Below are positions 10,666-25,290 of a stretch of DNA of 64,000 bases, piece after piece. The stretch is from contig NZ_CP041405.1 of NCBI RefSeq assembly GCF_007066085.1, forward strand, positions 1,798,001 through 1,862,000, written 5' to 3'. This stretch comes from Paenibacillus thiaminolyticus. Lineage in GTDB: Bacteria; Bacillota; Bacilli; Paenibacillales; Paenibacillaceae. The stretch's first letter is position 1. Every line of letters begins with the position of its first letter. The position numbers and the translations under genes were made by a program. The notes beneath the pieces are model-generated. The model searched no databases. It saw only the letters and a list, made by a program, of their open reading frames with translations, and was not told the DNA's origin.

Positions 10666-11493
10666 TTGAAGCGAATTTTCCACTGCATCATTATCATCTT
10701 CGGCGCCGCCTGTATCGCCGCCTCCTTCAATCTGTTCCTGCTGCCGCACCATTTGCTTAGCGGCGGGTTATCGGGCGTGTCGCTGGTGACGAATTACTTG
10801 ACTGGCTGGAATCCAAGCATATTGTATTTCACCTTTAATCTTCCGATCTTGATCTGGGGCTGGTTCGTGCTGGGCAAGCGGTTCATCGGGTACAGCATTC
10901 TCAGCGTCGCCACTACGACCTGGCTGCTGACTGTCATCCCCGTCCATTCGGTGACCAATGAGCCGCTGCTTGCCGCCATCTTCGGCGGGACGCTCGTCGG
11001 GATCGGCAGCGGAGTCTCGCTGCGCGTCGGCGGTTCGTCCGGCGGCTTCGACATCATCGGATCGATCGTGACCCGCTATCGCGATTTCTCGATTCAGAGC
11101 ATCCTGATCGTCTTGAACGGTGCCGTTATTTTCTCGCACGGATACATATCCCAAGAATGGGAGCTTGTCCTCTATTCCATGGTGTCTATCTTCACGACGA
11201 GCAAAATTATCGGCACGATCTACATCAACCACTACAAGGTGACCGTGTTTATCATTACCCGGGAGAAGGAAGCGCTAATCAACAAGCTGCTCTGTCTTCC
11301 GCACGGCGTAACCGTCATCAAAACGCGAGGCGCGTTCACCGACATCGAGAAGGACATGCTCATGACCGTGACGACCCGCTACGAGCTGCCCGATCTGAAG
11401 CGCAGCATCATGGAGATCGATCCGAAGGCATTCGTCAATATCGTGGAGACGGTCGGCGTCATTGGCAATTTCCGCCGGCCGATGTCGAAGTAA
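10666..11493 (+). CDS. yitT: YitT-family membrane protein
   Basis: A 275-residue protein with an N-terminal membrane half (about five segments, with GGLSGVSLVTNY and RVGGSSGGFDIIGSIV) and a C-terminal DUF2179 domain (HGVTVIKTRGAFTDIEKDML). This two-part build defines the YitT/YxkD group of Bacillales, whose function is not known. The start is a TTG, 10 bases after TGAGGTGA. It converges on the FMN reductase gene across a terminator. Confidence 0.9.
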   Translation: MKRIFHCIIIIFGAACIAASFNLFLLPHHLLSGGLSGVSLVTNYLTGWNPSILYFTFNLPILIWGWFVLGKRFIGYSILSVATTTWLLTVIPVHSVTNEPLLAAIFGGTLVGIGSGVSLRVGGSSGGFDIIGSIVTRYRDFSIQSILIVLNGAVIFSHGYISQEWELVLYSMVSIFTTSKIIGTIYINHYKVTVFIITREKEALINKLLCLPHGVTVIKTRGAFTDIEKDMLMTVTTRYELPDLKRSIMEIDPKAFVNIVETVGVIGNFRRPMSK

Positions 11494-19150: not shown

Positions 19151-20440
19151 TTATGTAGATACTCCGTCTTCATGGACTGTATTTGCCTGTTGTACCGTAG
19201 ATGTCTTATCAGTCAACGTTCGTAGCGGAGTAATACAGAAAGCACCCGCTGTGATCAGAATCAAACAAATTCCATACACACGAACGACAGATTGAAGTTC
19301 GACACCTAGATGCAACAGATACGACATCAGCGCCAAAGATAACGGAGTCAAAGCAGTCGATACAGATGTCATAATAGCTGTCACTTTACCCAGCATACGA
19401 GCCTCTGTCGTCTTCTGAATGTATGTAAAAATGGGAATATTGGATAGTTGAATCGAGTAGCCGATTGCAAAAAGCGCGCATACCGCCAGCGCAAACTGGT
19501 GTATGAAGCCGAGTGCGCTATAGCCGAGCACGACGACGGCCAGGAAGCACAGCATCATAAGCCCGGGACGAACAAACGTTTTGCACAATGAGGTCGTAAG
19601 CGCTCCCAGTATAAATCCGATGCCGAGCGAGATCTGCAGACAAGCAAGCACGAAGGCGCTGCCCTGCAAAATATCCCGGGCCATAATCGGAATCATGACT
19701 CCCATCGGCCCAGCGATAAAAAAATTCATTAGGAAACCAATTCCGGTGGTAATTGGCAAAATGCGATGTCCCCGAACATAGGCAAGCGAAGCGCGAAAGT
19801 CCTCCCATGGGGTTGTTGAGCGTGTGGATTCAACCTGCTGCGGCGGGGTTCGAACGCAAGCGATAAGCAATGAAGAAATGAGAAGCATTGCCATACAGAA
19901 CAAAAAAACGCCAGTAAATCCGATAGAAATAATTAATGTACTGCCTATGAGCGGCCCGATAATAAGGCTGTATTGCCCGGCCATCCGTAACAATCCATTC
20001 GCCCGCTGCAGCGAATCTTTATCGGTAATGGAGACGATCATGGAAGAATGCGCGGGACCGGAAAATGCGTCCATAATGCCAAACAGAAAGGAAACGATGA
20101 TCAGGAAAATCGGAGTAAGCGTATCGGTCAGATAACAAGTCAAAATGGACGCGATAAGAAGGAATTCCGACCACTGCGAGATAAGAACGACCAATTTCCG
20201 GTTTAACCGATCGGCAATAATTCCGCCATAGATCGTAAACAACAGGCGGGCGAACGTAGAGGCGAACAACATCATGCCCAAATAACTGCGCGACTCGTAG
20301 ATCGTGAGCATCAGCCATTCCACGGCGATGATATAAATAAAATAACCGGGACTGGAAATAAGGGCCGCCGTCAAAAAAAAGCGGTAATTGCGATTGCCCC
20401 AAATACCGGATTGGGGCGTGGCTTTCAAATGCTCGTCCAT
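19151..20440 (-). CDS. MFS transporter, likely exporter of the RiPP locus
   Basis: About 429 residues, 12 membrane segments. GGIIADRLNRKLVVL is the motif A equivalent, and the pattern resembles the DHA3/MFS_3 drug-efflux group. The start is the ATG at 20440 after GAAAGGACG; the six upstream codons form the ribosome binding site. It lies 190 bp behind the radical SAM gene on the same strand and in the same AT-richer island. I infer that it exports the modified peptide; self-resistance to another compound is the alternative. Confidence 0.8.
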   Translation of the reverse strand: MDEHLKATPQSGIWGNRNYRFFLTAALISSPGYFIYIIAVEWLMLTIYESRSYLGMMLFASTFARLLFTIYGGIIADRLNRKLVVLISQWSEFLLIASILTCYLTDTLTPIFLIIVSFLFGIMDAFSGPAHSSMIVSITDKDSLQRANGLLRMAGQYSLIIGPLIGSTLIISIGFTGVFLFCMAMLLISSLLIACVRTPPQQVESTRSTTPWEDFRASLAYVRGHRILPITTGIGFLMNFFIAGPMGVMIPIMARDILQGSAFVLACLQISLGIGFILGALTTSLCKTFVRPGLMMLCFLAVVVLGYSALGFIHQFALAVCALFAIGYSIQLSNIPIFTYIQKTTEARMLGKVTAIMTSVSTALTPLSLALMSYLLHLGVELQSVVRVYGICLILITAGAFCITPLRTLTDKTSTVQQANTVHEDGVST

Positions 20441-20630
20441 CGAACTACGTCCTTTCATAAAGCATTTCCATTTTCATCCCTCATTTTTGAATCAATATAT
20501 TCTATTCAATAATAAAAGTCAATATAATGGTCAAAGTATCATACTCAACTACAAAGGAAATGAACGAGATAGTCTCTGTTCGTTCCGCTGTTCACTACTT
20601 CGCTGAATCTCGTTGGTCTTATTAGGGAGG

Positions 20631-22010
20631 TCAGGCTTTGACCTTACTTTCGCATGTTGATGCATGGACTGAGTAATCTCCGTTAACGAGTTTCATATAT
20701 TTCTTCACATTCTTTTTTATTGGAGGGCATGGAGTTATTCCGGATTCGATACGTTTCAGCGGACAGGCGTTTCCTTGGCAAGACGGTCTAAAGAAGCATT
20801 TGGTGCATGCAGGGTCTTCATTAACGCCTCCTGTAGTCCATAGACTCCATTTCTCCTGATCGATTACTACATCACCGTTTTCTAAAATGTCGCCAACATG
20901 GTTATAAGGATTATTAAAAGCAACGGTACATTTATAGATCATTCCATCAGAGCCGATAACTAGAGAAGAAGGATTGGAAGCGTAGCATTCAGAGCCACCC
21001 GGTTGTAAATATTGCTTGTAATAATCGAAATTGAATCCTTCTTCTTTCGCTTTATCATAAAAAGTATATAATTCTTTCTTATCGCATAAATGGATATCGG
21101 AGGTCTGTTCTCTTTTTAAATTTTCAATCGATGAGAAATGCAAAGTAAAACGTGAATCCTCTACAAATAACTCTCCAATCATTGAAATATATTGATTCAT
21201 CGTCGTGGCTACTTCGTCATTAATATTTGAGCGTATAGTGACGTGAAATTTTTCGGGACTGTGTTTCATTTGAATAAGATTAGATAATATCGTGTCGAAT
21301 GTTTTTTCTCCTAATGTCCCCACCCGGTAACGGTCATGCGTTTCTGCTGTTCCGTCAAGCGTTATTTGGAATGATCTCACTTCATATTCCATTAGCTGCT
21401 CAAATTTATCTTTATCAAGTAAATAACCATTCGTCGTCATACCCGCTCGATAATGAACATTGTTTTTCTTGCAAATCTCTATGATTTGTGGCGACATTTT
21501 TTTGATTATATTAAATGATTTCAGTGGTTCTCCGCCAAACCAGTTAATTACCAGGCTATTATATCTCGGCAATGTTTTCTCCAAATACTTGAGAACGCCC
21601 TTTTGAACCGATTCCTTCATTTCCGATTTAACAAAATCCTCATAACAATAGACACAACGAAAATTGCAATCTTCATTCGGCATCAAGATAAGTTCAAGGG
21701 TCCGGTTAAAGGACAACAAATTATATTTTTGCGCGGTAGCCATTTGAAACTCATCTACACTCTCACGTACAAGAAAACCTTTTTGAAATAAAAAAGTTAT
21801 AATCTCAGAGTTCCTGTCATTATGTAATAATTCCACTGATTTTGATCTCAGTACACTCTTTACGCGCTCTGCTTGATCACCGTCAAAAACAGCGATTTTC
21901 CCGCGATAAGAATTATATAATCGGAGTCTGTCCCCATCTTGACTCATTACATTAAAACGTGACGGCTTAAGTATATTTTGTGCAACAGCAATTTCATCAG
22001 TTATAACCAA
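20631..22010 (-). CDS. Radical SAM/SPASM peptide maturase
   Basis: About 459 residues. The radical SAM motif is CNFRCVYC (Cys 115, 119, 122), followed by a partial TIM barrel with WFGGEPL and TTNGYLL. A SPASM domain follows (C-x13-G-x4-C ending in GMIYKC, then CTKCFFRPSCQGNAC and a final Cys in TPCPP), which holds two auxiliary 4Fe-4S clusters. The first 100 residues are a small domain that in relatives binds the precursor leader. Enzymes of this build install thioether or carbon crosslinks in ribosomal peptides. The start is the TTG at 22010, eight bases after GGAGG. The gene follows the 22-residue precursor. Confidence 0.88.
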   Translation of the reverse strand: MVITDEIAVAQNILKPSRFNVMSQDGDRLRLYNSYRGKIAVFDGDQAERVKSVLRSKSVELLHNDRNSEIITFLFQKGFLVRESVDEFQMATAQKYNLLSFNRTLELILMPNEDCNFRCVYCYEDFVKSEMKESVQKGVLKYLEKTLPRYNSLVINWFGGEPLKSFNIIKKMSPQIIEICKKNNVHYRAGMTTNGYLLDKDKFEQLMEYEVRSFQITLDGTAETHDRYRVGTLGEKTFDTILSNLIQMKHSPEKFHVTIRSNINDEVATTMNQYISMIGELFVEDSRFTLHFSSIENLKREQTSDIHLCDKKELYTFYDKAKEEGFNFDYYKQYLQPGGSECYASNPSSLVIGSDGMIYKCTVAFNNPYNHVGDILENGDVVIDQEKWSLWTTGGVNEDPACTKCFFRPSCQGNACPLKRIESGITPCPPIKKNVKKYMKLVNGDYSVHASTCESKVKA

Positions 22011-22034
22011 AATCAACACCTCCACCATTATGAA

Positions 22035-22074
22035 GTTACAGGAAGGAAGGATAGACATCCTCCCTTCCTGTAAC
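22035..22074 (-). promoter_or_regulatory. Long hairpin between precursor and maturase genes
   Basis: GTTACAGGAAGGGAGGAT pairs with ATCCTTCCTTCCTGTAAC (one G-U wobble), an 18-bp stem with a 4-nt loop. There is no T-run directly after it. It starts 24 bases past the precursor stop and ends 8 bases before the maturase ribosome binding site, so it is well placed to protect or process the precursor mRNA and lower maturase expression. Confidence 0.8.
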
Positions 22075-22098
22075 CGCTTTCTACAAAAGACAAAAAAA

Positions 22099-22167
22099 TT
22101 ACCCGCCACACTGCACATTAATGATAATATCTCCATCTCTATTGCTCATTGCAAACATCTCTTCCAC
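22099..22167 (-). CDS. RiPP precursor peptide with C-terminal NVQCGG core
   Basis: A 22-residue peptide, too short for most gene callers. The leader is MEEMFAMSNRD and the core region is GDIIINVQCGG. The single cysteine lies three residues after an asparagine (N-x-x-C) and is followed by two glycines. The GTG start lies 9 bases after AAAGGAGG, an excellent ribosome binding site, and a consensus promoter precedes it. The stop is 88 bp ahead of a radical SAM/SPASM gene on the same strand. A Cys-to-Asn thioether made by that enzyme is the simplest reading; it is an inference. Confidence 0.75.
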   Translation of the reverse strand: MEEMFAMSNRDGDIIINVQCGG

Positions 22168-22201
22168 CTCTTCACACCTCCTTTCACTATACTTATTTTG
22201 A

Positions 22202-22230
22202 AATATATCCCATGCATCAATTTATGTCAA
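22202..22230 (-). promoter_or_regulatory. Consensus promoter of the RiPP locus
   Basis: On the minus strand TTGACA (22225-22230), a 17-bp spacer and TATATT (22202-22207) match the housekeeping sigma consensus almost perfectly. Transcription should start near 22195, about 28 bases before the precursor start codon. Confidence 0.8.
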
Positions 22231-22294: not shown

Positions 22295-22338
22295 AATAGA
22301 AGGGAAGGATCGCCGCATGTACGAGCAAACTTCAAACT

Positions 22339-22542
22339 GTGCATTTGCGATTAATAGGTATGTCTGTACGCAAGATTGCCACGATCATCTGTCGTTCGGA
22401 GAAAACCATTCGCCTCTACATCTTCGCCTATGAAAAATAAGGTTTGTCGGGCCTGATCATGCGTTTCTCCCCCGGGCGCTCCCCACGACTAACGAAAGAA
22501 CAGCGGGAATTCGTCATCTTTTGTTGGAAGATGAATGCATGA
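22339..22542 (+). pseudogene. IS630-family transposase remnant
   Basis: The frame reads IGMSVRKIATIICRSEKTIR (helix-turn-helix of IS630 transposases), is cut by a TAA, and continues in frame as GLSGLIMRFSPGRSPRLTKEQ, the linker typical of the family, before a second stop. The DDE catalytic part is missing. Sequence up to about 22620 is probably part of the same decayed element. Confidence 0.7.
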
Positions 22543-22996: not shown

Positions 22997-23222
22997 ATGT
23001 TAGATTTGAAGCAATATGGCTATGTAGAAGCTGACACGCCGAGAAGTGACTTAATACCCGGACGGGTAATATTACACGAGAAAAAGAGCGGTGCTTCCGC
23101 ATAGCAGCCATTCTCGAACAGGTTGTAGCAGCGAATTTCGACGTCAACCGTATCACGCGTTATTTGACCAGGCGCGGCAAAGCGGTGGCCAGCAGTCATC
23201 GCTGCTCAATGCGCTGATGGAG
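22997..23222 (+). pseudogene. Collapsed rsgA paralogue (ribosome-associated GTPase)
   Basis: After a good ribosome binding site (TAAGGAG) the frame starts MLDLKQYGYVEADTPRSDLI, then PGRV, which is the N-terminus of RsgA GTPases, and stops after 35 codons. Further RsgA blocks follow in changing frames: LEQVVAANFD, NRITRYLT, ARQSGGQ and finally SSLLNALM from the G1 region. At least one frameshift and two internal deletions are needed. The GTPase core is gone. Confidence 0.75.
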
Positions 23223-23255
23223 CAAACAAAAAAAGAAAATCGGAGGGTTCAAGAG

Positions 23256-24266
23256 ATGAGCGATTCCAAAATCAAAGTTGAAACACTAATAAGTGTTTTA
23301 AGCAAAATGCTCGGCGCAAACGTGATTCATGCCGACTACGAAGCCAAGCAGTTACACGGCGGTACAGTAGGGGATGTACGACTTGTCACAGGCATAGCCG
23401 CAACCGATACCGGCGGGAAACTGACGTATAATGTGGTTTTGAAGGTACAGAAGAGATGGGAGCGCCGTGGCGACCCCGATTCATGGCGCAGGGAGTATGA
23501 CCTTTACGCATCGGATTTAAGTGCGGCTTTCTCCCCTTCCTTTCGCTGGCCTGTGTGTTACCATGCGGAGTTGAACAATGATGAAACGCAATTATGGCTG
23601 GAATATATTGACGGTATATCAGGATTATACCTAACCGTAGAAATGTACGAACGTGCAGCCGAGGAATTAGGGCGATTCCAAGGCAAACTGTATGCCGAAC
23701 AGCCAACCCTGTTGCAAAACCTAACCAACCTAAGCAAAGTTGCGTTCATGAAAAACTACTATCTGCATTACAAGTCATGGAGTGAAGTCTATGATTACAT
23801 TCGTGGTCATGACTGCGAAATCCCAAGGCACTTGTGCAAAATGCTCATCGACGTTGATGAGAACACAGACGAAATATTCAATCGCATAGAAAAGCTGCCC
23901 ATCGTGCTGTGCCACAGAGATTTTTGGGTGACGAATATATTTTATTCAAACGATAAAATCGTACTAATCGACTGGGATACCACCGGATGGGGTTATATGG
24001 GCGAGGACATCGCAAGTCTTATAGCGGATGAACCAGACGTTAACCACATGGTTGAATACTACCAAAAATGCGTTCCGGCGTATTACAAAGGTTTCTCGGA
24101 ATATGCGGACATATCCCATATCTCGGATCATTGCGTTAGCGAGCTAATCCTTGTTATGTTCGGATACAGGCTTATAGAGTGGTACAAATTCGCTAAGTCC
24201 CCCGACGAAAAAGCGCTGCATCTCAATACCCTACAAAAAATCTATGAAATGAGGGATATTCCATGA
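23256..24266 (+). CDS. Aminoglycoside phosphotransferase-family protein
   Basis: A 336-residue kinase-like protein. The APH catalytic block is LCHRDFWVTNIF (Brenner motif HxDxxxxN) near residue 225, followed by VLIDWDTTGWGYMGEDIASLI, with the metal-binding Asp. The N-lobe has VVLKVQKRW as the likely ATP lysine strand. Relatives phosphorylate antibiotics or small metabolites; the substrate is not readable. The ATG follows CGGAGGG. It now lies directly behind the leader and terminators of the broken rsgA copy, so it may be expressed under that attenuator. Confidence 0.85.
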   Translation: MSDSKIKVETLISVLSKMLGANVIHADYEAKQLHGGTVGDVRLVTGIAATDTGGKLTYNVVLKVQKRWERRGDPDSWRREYDLYASDLSAAFSPSFRWPVCYHAELNNDETQLWLEYIDGISGLYLTVEMYERAAEELGRFQGKLYAEQPTLLQNLTNLSKVAFMKNYYLHYKSWSEVYDYIRGHDCEIPRHLCKMLIDVDENTDEIFNRIEKLPIVLCHRDFWVTNIFYSNDKIVLIDWDTTGWGYMGEDIASLIADEPDVNHMVEYYQKCVPAYYKGFSEYADISHISDHCVSELILVMFGYRLIEWYKFAKSPDEKALHLNTLQKIYEMRDIP

Positions 24267-24344: not shown

Positions 24345-25290
24345 TGGCTTTCGTTATTACGGTAAAAAAGGCTGGCAGATTGTCCATCGCTGTCGCATCG
24401 TCAAAGCCCTCTTCCAAGACCCTCATGGCCTTTAGAGCTTTTCTTCAAATGTTTCTTGTGTCCGCTTTAGCAGTGTACGGGCACGGGTCTCGTCCACAGC
24501 TTCGTAGAAGGCCCTTACATGGGCCTTCTATTCGTCACGGCAAGATGTAGGAGCAGCATCCATTACGCATAAATTAGGTTTGGCACTGTTGCCAGGTTAT
24601 TCCTTGGAAATATTGCCGAATCGCTTTTACCAAACCACCGTGATGGTCGCTTGTAATGACATCAACACCATGCGACCCGCTTTTGAGGTGCGTATAGAAA
24701 GCTCCTCACGTTGCTGCTGACTCGGTATCATCTATGGTAAGTCCCAAGCCGTTCCCGGTACCCATCCGCATTAATCCCATTTGCATCATCACGCCACGTG
24801 AGCGCACACGACCGTCTTCCCGAACTTTGACGTACAGAGCGTCAGCAATAAGAAAGGGGTAGGCCTTGTCCAGTTTTCGGTTATTTCAACCTATACGAGG
24901 GGATCCAGTTGCTTGTAGAGCTCACTAACAGTCGATTTGGGAAGCTCCGTCCCGCACAGTTCTTCCGTGATATTGCTTACTTTTCGCGTTGAGCACCATT
25001 GAGTACCATCTCCATCATGGATAAGACAAGGGCTTGCTCACTGCGCTGGTACCGAGAAAAAAGTTCCGCAGAGAACCGACCGTTGTGGAAACGCGGCACT
25101 TGCAGGGTTAATTGCCCCACCCTTGTTGTCAGCCGATGAGGATATGATCCATTACGGTAACCTGCACTTTCTTCTGAGCGCTCATAGTGCCTCGCCTTTA
25201 GTTGTTCCGTTGCTTTTGCCTGCAAACTTGATTTAAGATGGACTCTAATAGGGCCGCTATTCCCGCATCTCTTGATTCGGATAAAAACAG
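24345..25290 (-). pseudogene. IS256-family transposase pseudogene
   Basis: On the minus strand, blocks typical of Mutator-type transposases appear in several frames: AGIAALLESILNQV, GYRNGSYPHRLTTRVGQLTL, RFSAELFSRYQRSEQALVL, NITEELCGTELPKSTVS, then the C-terminal VDETRARTLLKRTQETFEEK. Frameshifts and stops interrupt all of them, so the element is dead. Clear terminal repeats and target duplications were not found. Confidence 0.8.

Follow-up and report, generated by a model that had tools for sequence, protein, structure and literature searches.

We identified a locus for a ribosomally synthesized and post-translationally modified peptide (RiPP) on the minus strand of a 64,000-nucleotide stretch of Paenibacillus thiaminolyticus DNA, hereafter the window. 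In order, it contains a promoter, a ribosome binding site, a 22-codon open reading frame (ORF), a hairpin, a radical S-adenosylmethionine (SAM)/SPASM gene and a major facilitator superfamily (MFS) transporter gene. The ORF (22099..22167, minus strand, GTG start) encodes the peptide MEEMFAMSNRDGDIIINVQCGG with the motif N17-V-Q-C20, and the maturase gene (20631..22010, minus strand, TTG start) encodes a protein of 459 residues. As judged by sequence comparison, the short ORF and the maturase form a RiPP locus in which a conserved precursor is linked to the maturase across species. Conservation of an Asn three residues before the Cys, a CteB-like predicted fold and a published precedent suggest that the maturase probably makes a Cys-Asn (i, i+3) thioether, as in streptococcal NxxcB. 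An earlier note on this DNA had proposed a RiPP locus with a short precursor, a SPASM-type maturase and a conserved N-x-x-C motif in a Bacillales host, all of which is supported here; the promoter, ribosome site, small ORF, maturase and MFS genes are all present on one strand, with correct coordinates and translation.

The precursor gene and its N-x-x-C motif

The close group of loci comprised those of the window, P. dendritiformis (G008), three further genomes of the genus (G007, G009 and G017), a P. larvae-like genome and Sediminibacillus terrae. The 500 bases upstream of each maturase were searched for ORFs of 10–60 codons that had a ribosome site and ended in N..C plus at most two residues. 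Such an ORF was found at the expected place in 7/7 loci, window included, and in 1–6 of 500 dinucleotide shuffles of each upstream region. The earlier note had named homologous maturases without a conserved ORF at this place as the finding that would speak against the precursor, and the close loci gave the opposite result. Two of the seven upstream regions (window and P. dendritiformis) held one extra, chance-like ORF each. In 574,024 strand-bases of the examined loci, 15 ORFs qualified: 12 were precursors, their duplicates or relatives (L035, L036 and L037), and three were chance-like.

The short ORF of P. dendritiformis is identical to that of the window, and those of the other close loci encode MEDMFAMSNKDGDVIINVQCG (G009), MEELFAMSNKDGKIILNVVCF (G007), MAFSVEKEGEEGGSKTINIFC (G017), MAKKDPVRVVNVFC (P. 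larvae-like genome) and the 12-residue MADKPVTVNVFC (S. terrae). In G009 and G007 an ATG stands at the equivalent place, which supports the GTG start of the window precursor. Within the 22-codon frame, the ratio of synonymous to non-synonymous codons was 3/3 compared to G009 and 5/6 compared to G007, with few differing codons in either case. A leader of about 11 residues, described previously as unusually short, fits these data, and relatives are shorter still, with complete precursors of only 12 and 14 residues. Release of the peptide after its CGG end, also suggested by the earlier note, is unsupported because the tail is not conserved: close kin have CGG, CG or CF, and other relatives have no such tail. 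Double-glycine release was ruled out for the same variation.

Precursor ORFs were found at 17 loci overall, window included. For example, the Tumebacillus flagellatus precursor is MNKNLEQEILELEETLADEVFGEQKTNNNVIC, and a precursor with six repeats, TVPTQNTNNNVC, was spotted by eye in a Tumebacillus genome, G618 (locus L034, 3281-3631, oriented to the maturase). Other loci, from the same genus or a neighbouring one, have precursors ending in CNNCWC (L035 and L037), CNC (L113-L116) or NGNCHIC (L112), and the Sutcliffiella precursor (L022, 6098-6232) has four N-x-x-C units. Precursors were picked by a ribosome site and a Cys near the end; in one later set the rule also admitted N-x-x-C, and every precursor kept from this looser rule also ends in Cys. 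The motif statistics were based on 16 precursor types, counting one repeat for L034 and one copy each for L114 and L116. Asn occupied position -3 of 24/29 Cys residues, the runner-up offsets being -1 (12) and -4 (11), and was present in 8/8 single-Cys precursors. When residues were permuted around fixed Cys, the mean was 8.1 and the maximum 17, and 24 was reached in 0/20,000 permutations. The precursor rows are related, and the 16 types are therefore not 16 independent events. A search of four more distant paralogue loci (L117-L120) found no convincing precursor.

Several additional features were observed around the wider set of precursors. L114 (8900-9188, reverse-complemented) and L116 (12717-13001) hold three precursor copies each with NNNNCNC ends, one L114 copy ending in CNCG. 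In L114/L116-type loci, the gene after the maturase encodes a family-5 solute-binding protein, an assignment confirmed by a hidden Markov model (HMM) in L113 only. By eye, a gene resembling a subtilase follows the L022 precursor, and similar genes follow those of L035 and L037. HMM matches in L036, the counterpart of L034, point to a B12-binding radical SAM protein and a pair of TldD/PmbA-like proteins; L034 has similar-looking ones, judged by eye. Beside the N-x-x-C-type locus, L115 also contains three identical Ser/Cys-rich precursors (MEIKALEVTGLEVMDLNDAM...CSTCGSSSCCGSC, 10837-11377), which by eye resemble those of a thiopeptide- or LanB-type cluster.

The maturase and the proposed thioether

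The maturase contains the radical SAM motif CNFRCVYC (residues 115-122), SPASM-type cysteines at positions 342, 361, 402, 405, 411, 416 and 428, and an N-terminus (about residues 13-100) that resembles a RiPP recognition element (RRE). It matched PF04055 with 48.9 bits (cut-off 29.5) and PF13186 with 14.8 bits, below the cut-off of 21.5; a CxxxCxxC motif, an invariant Cys set and the predicted fold place it among radical SAM/SPASM enzymes. The likely start is the TTG at 22010, preceded by GGTGGAGGTG; at its longest, the frame would begin at 22136, within the precursor ORF. All cluster ligands are kept in the maturases of G007 and G009, which are 81% and 87% identical to that of the window.

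Among the matches listed, the maturase scored below the cut-off of every NCBIfam model. The nearest curated model was TIGR04463 (rSAM_vs_C_rich; 207 bits, cut-off 525), yet the window precursor is not Cys-rich. PapB (108.8 bits, cut-off 340), SCIFF TIGR03974 (81.2 bits, cut-off 425), Geopeptide, Clo7bot and sactipeptide maturase models were also among the nearest matches. The predicted structure fits the thioether maturase CteB best, and a SCIFF maturase was the top match in PDB. However, enzymes of other chemistry match the core of the model equally well, and thus the chemistry is not readable from the fold. The window enzyme shares its predicted fold, RRE-like start and SPASM-type ligands with SCIFF/ranthipeptide maturases (CteB and PapB), from which it differs in scores far under the curated cut-offs, the N-x-x-C spacing and the single Cys of its precursor.

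In published work, streptococcal NxxcB joins Cys23 to the C-beta of Asn20 in NxxcA (PMC8326336; PMC13361665). The window family shares the N-x-x-C core motif and a radical SAM maturase with these streptococcal NxxC radical SAM RiPPs, for which a single thioether is described in NxxcA. Unlike the streptococcal systems, the present family occurs in Bacillales hosts, has precursors down to 12 residues with the Cys at or near the C-terminus, and includes relatives with a decarboxylase; moreover, the neighbouring ORFs scanned gave no regulator match, although no search was aimed at Rgg. In the proposed mechanism, the RRE-like N-terminal domain would bind the 22-residue precursor, and the enzyme would abstract a side-chain hydrogen, most likely at C-beta, from the Asn at position -3 relative to the Cys. 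Joining of the Cys sulfur to this Asn would close a thioether ring of four residues, N-V-Q-C, lower the mass by 2.016 Da relative to the precursor and leave no free thiol. The modified peptide would be exported by the MFS protein; leader removal, if any, would be carried out by a peptidase encoded outside the genes read at the locus.

Putative decarboxylases in related loci

A PF02441-type flavoprotein gene was detected by tblastn adjacent to the maturase, or no more than about 2.5 kb away, in eight of 22 loci searched together with the window. These were G017, the P. larvae-like genome, Sediminibacillus, two T. flagellatus loci and three G618 loci. In 8/8 of these loci the last residue of the precursor is Cys. 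When two of the flavoproteins were searched against PDB sequences, EpiD and MrsD were the best matches, above CoaC-type proteins (E 1e-23 to 1e-26). In an alignment of five flavoproteins, an invariant His aligned with His67 of EpiD and the Asn of a PNMN motif with Asn117 (by our own residue count), which we take to be the catalytic residues of EpiD. Two observations argue against this likeness: the best NCBIfam match of 4/4 scanned flavoproteins was CoaBC (111-127 bits, cut-off 219.7), and the peptide-cysteine model CypD reached only 37 and 27 bits, in 2/4 of them.

In the window, G007, G008 and G009 genomes, three PF02441 genes per genome were found, none at the RiPP locus; their frame lengths presumably correspond to UbiX/Pad, CoaBC and DpaB. 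A tblastn search for a flavoprotein remnant near the window maturase and MFS genes gave chance matches only (best E 1.3). In these loci the Cys is not terminal and is followed by GG (window and G008), F (G007) or G (G009); with no decarboxylase at its locus and a precursor ending in CGG, the window falls outside the aminovinylcysteine (AviCys) type. In a 20-row tree with a midpoint root, the window clade (three rows, 100/100) was nested within an 11-row clade (100/99). Of the eight other rows of the latter, seven carry the decarboxylase and the eighth is Sutcliffiella (L022), whose contig ends early. Given this nesting, loss of the decarboxylase is the simpler reading: the window clade may be a derived offshoot in which the Cys became covered by one or two residues.

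The opposite relation, a decarboxylase wherever the Cys is terminal, was ruled out by L113-L116, which end in CNC with no PF02441 gene at the locus; one of the three L114 copies ends in CG. Among these loci a decarboxylase goes with a terminal Cys, and the relation is one-way only. We tentatively suggest, from sequence, that the wider family may be a RiPP class not yet described, with a radical SAM/SPASM enzyme and an EpiD-like decarboxylase both working on one C-terminal N-x-x-C to give an AviCys-like ring, although we would not give this even chances. In such relatives the flavoprotein would convert the final Cys to an enethiol, whose sulfur the radical enzyme would couple to Asn. The resulting ring would be an aminovinyl-3-thioasparagine, reached by a dehydratase-free route to AviCys-type rings from precursors of as few as 12 residues.

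The eight relatives resemble AviCys peptides (epidermin, mersacidin and cypemycin, with EpiD, MrsD and CypD) in their EpiD/MrsD-like flavoproteins and Cys-ending precursors, and their four-residue C-terminal spacing presumably matches that of epidermin. They are unlike AviCys peptides in that the partner residue is Asn, not Ser/Thr/Cys, and a radical SAM enzyme is present; the window clade further differs in having no such flavoprotein at its locus. No dehydratase was noticed in the ORF lists of the relatives, for which no HMM search was made. EpiD is reported to remove the carboxyl group of a terminal Cys oxidatively, before the ring is closed (PMC4979651).

Locus architecture, distribution and alternative readings

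The precursor is preceded by a sigma-70-type promoter, TTGACA-N17-TATATT (22202..22230, minus strand), which matches the consensus at 11/12 positions. It was the best of 10 sites in a promoter scan; since shuffled sequence yields 10.5 sites, the scan by itself is no proof. Identical hexamers and spacing were found ahead of the precursor ORF in two relatives, P. dendritiformis and G009; four others have only weaker sites (9-10 of 12). The ribosome binding site AAAGGAGG (22177..22184, minus strand) was read from the sequence nine bases ahead of the GTG at 22167. A 19-bp hairpin (22034..22075, minus strand; -31.6 kcal/mol, z -7.8), with no T-run, lies in the gap between precursor and maturase; the earlier note did not mention it. 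A long stem follows the precursor ORF in 7/7 close loci, although its sequence varies among them, and the hairpin probably provides a high precursor-to-enzyme ratio, or a stabilised or excess precursor transcript.

The gene for the MFS transporter, a presumed exporter (19151..20458, minus strand; PF07690/PF05977), begins 172 bases past the end of the maturase gene, at 20458 or perhaps at the ATG at 20440, behind a possible second promoter, TTGACT-N17-TATATT (20494..20522, minus strand; 10/12, weak). The MFS protein is 93-96% identical in G007, G008 and G009, 53% in G017 and 57% in the P. larvae-like locus; in the latter two the decarboxylase gene precedes it. Just upstream of the precursor promoter, short frames at 22317-22542 (plus strand) that resemble a helix-turn-helix domain (HTH_38, 20.7 bits, cut-off 27) are perhaps a worn transposase fragment, and a Mutator-family transposase fragment lies at 24977-25225 (minus strand; PF00872, E 1e-20). 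On the opposite strand, 23091-24266 (plus strand) encodes an APH/ecdysteroid-kinase-like phosphotransferase (PF01636, 43 bits), for which we see no reason to assume a link to the RiPP.

At a maturase identity of at least 67%, the locus was found in 5/19 genomes of the genus (counting that of the window and the interrupted G008 copy), plus a fragment in G016. At E 1e-105, the same five were found among 394 genomes of the family, and a sample of 296 from the order contained two, those of the window and the P. larvae-like genome. Related proteins exist under the names Bacillus paralicheniformis, B. haynesii, Virgibacillus pantothenticus and Lysinibacillus sp.; a search for further Bacillaceae loci gave 0/250 genomes of one family and 0/44 of the genus taken for Bacillus (BslA), empty answers that prove nothing. 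Other matches were to plasmids (seven records, 30-34% identity), phages (four records, 25-32%) and 48 loci on viral contigs (best segment 40%); nine of these 48 were scanned for precursors, none convincing.

Part of this distribution weighs against a functional peptide system. G016 (L038) has lost the precursor, and only about 132 residues of its maturase are left, with 93% identity. In G008 (L015 and L008), the precursor and MFS genes are intact, and an insertion that by eye resembles a transposase gene splits the maturase at about residue 223; a contig break was ruled out as the cause because this insertion was seen instead. With the maturase broken in 2/6 genomes of the genus bearing all or part of it (G000, G007, G008, G009, G016 and G017), the locus is dispensable and patchy, like other peptide clusters. 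That it is decaying throughout the window clade and makes nothing would also agree with the missing decarboxylase and with one TAA counted inside the G009 maturase match, although a 452-residue frame is open there. We consider this improbable given that the promoter, ribosome sites, precursor, maturase and MFS genes of the window are all intact, and that the G007 and G009 maturases retain every cluster ligand.

A more serious, yet still unlikely, alternative is that the enzyme modifies the same RiPP in another way, for instance by epimerisation, by some other oxidation or by forming a thioether at C-alpha (a sactionine) or C-gamma, in which case Asn(-3) would serve only in binding. The diversity of the nearest curated models and the equal core fit of differing enzymes would allow this; however, Asn(-3) occurs in every single-Cys precursor, and the single printed N-x-x-C enzyme that we found makes a beta-thioether to this Asn (PMC8326336). 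Least probable is that the small ORF encodes a regulatory leader which, with the hairpin, attenuates the maturase while the true substrate lies elsewhere. A short ORF, a hairpin and a gene are the classical arrangement for such control, but the hairpin has no T-run behind it, the amino-acid motif is kept as far as Tumebacillus, and a related short ORF lies past the maturase in L035, L037, L022 and L113-L116. Three ORF copies in L114 and L116, six core repeats in L034 and the terminal Cys of all decarboxylase-linked precursors likewise argue for a substrate, and a Cys-Asn thioether peptide remains our preferred reading.

Both N-x-x-C thioether peptides and decarboxylation of the EpiD type are already known. 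In the open-access literature (titles and abstract starts, among the matches listed), we found no pairing of a radical SAM maturase with a peptide-Cys decarboxylase and no described Bacillales group with 12-22-residue precursors. We know of no smaller natural substrates for a thioether-forming radical SAM enzyme; if the proposed chemistry is true, these precursors of 12-22 residues, with almost no leader, would be the smallest, and would be suited to work on structure and mechanism and to in vitro peptide cyclisation. To our knowledge, AviCys-type termini otherwise need a dehydrated residue, and pairing with a decarboxylase would then represent a second chemical route to them. Because loci with and without the decarboxylase occur naturally, and the last precursor residue differs to match, it can be tested directly which of the two reactions comes first. 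For the organisms that carry the locus, the product may serve as a signal, as an antimicrobial or in metal binding.

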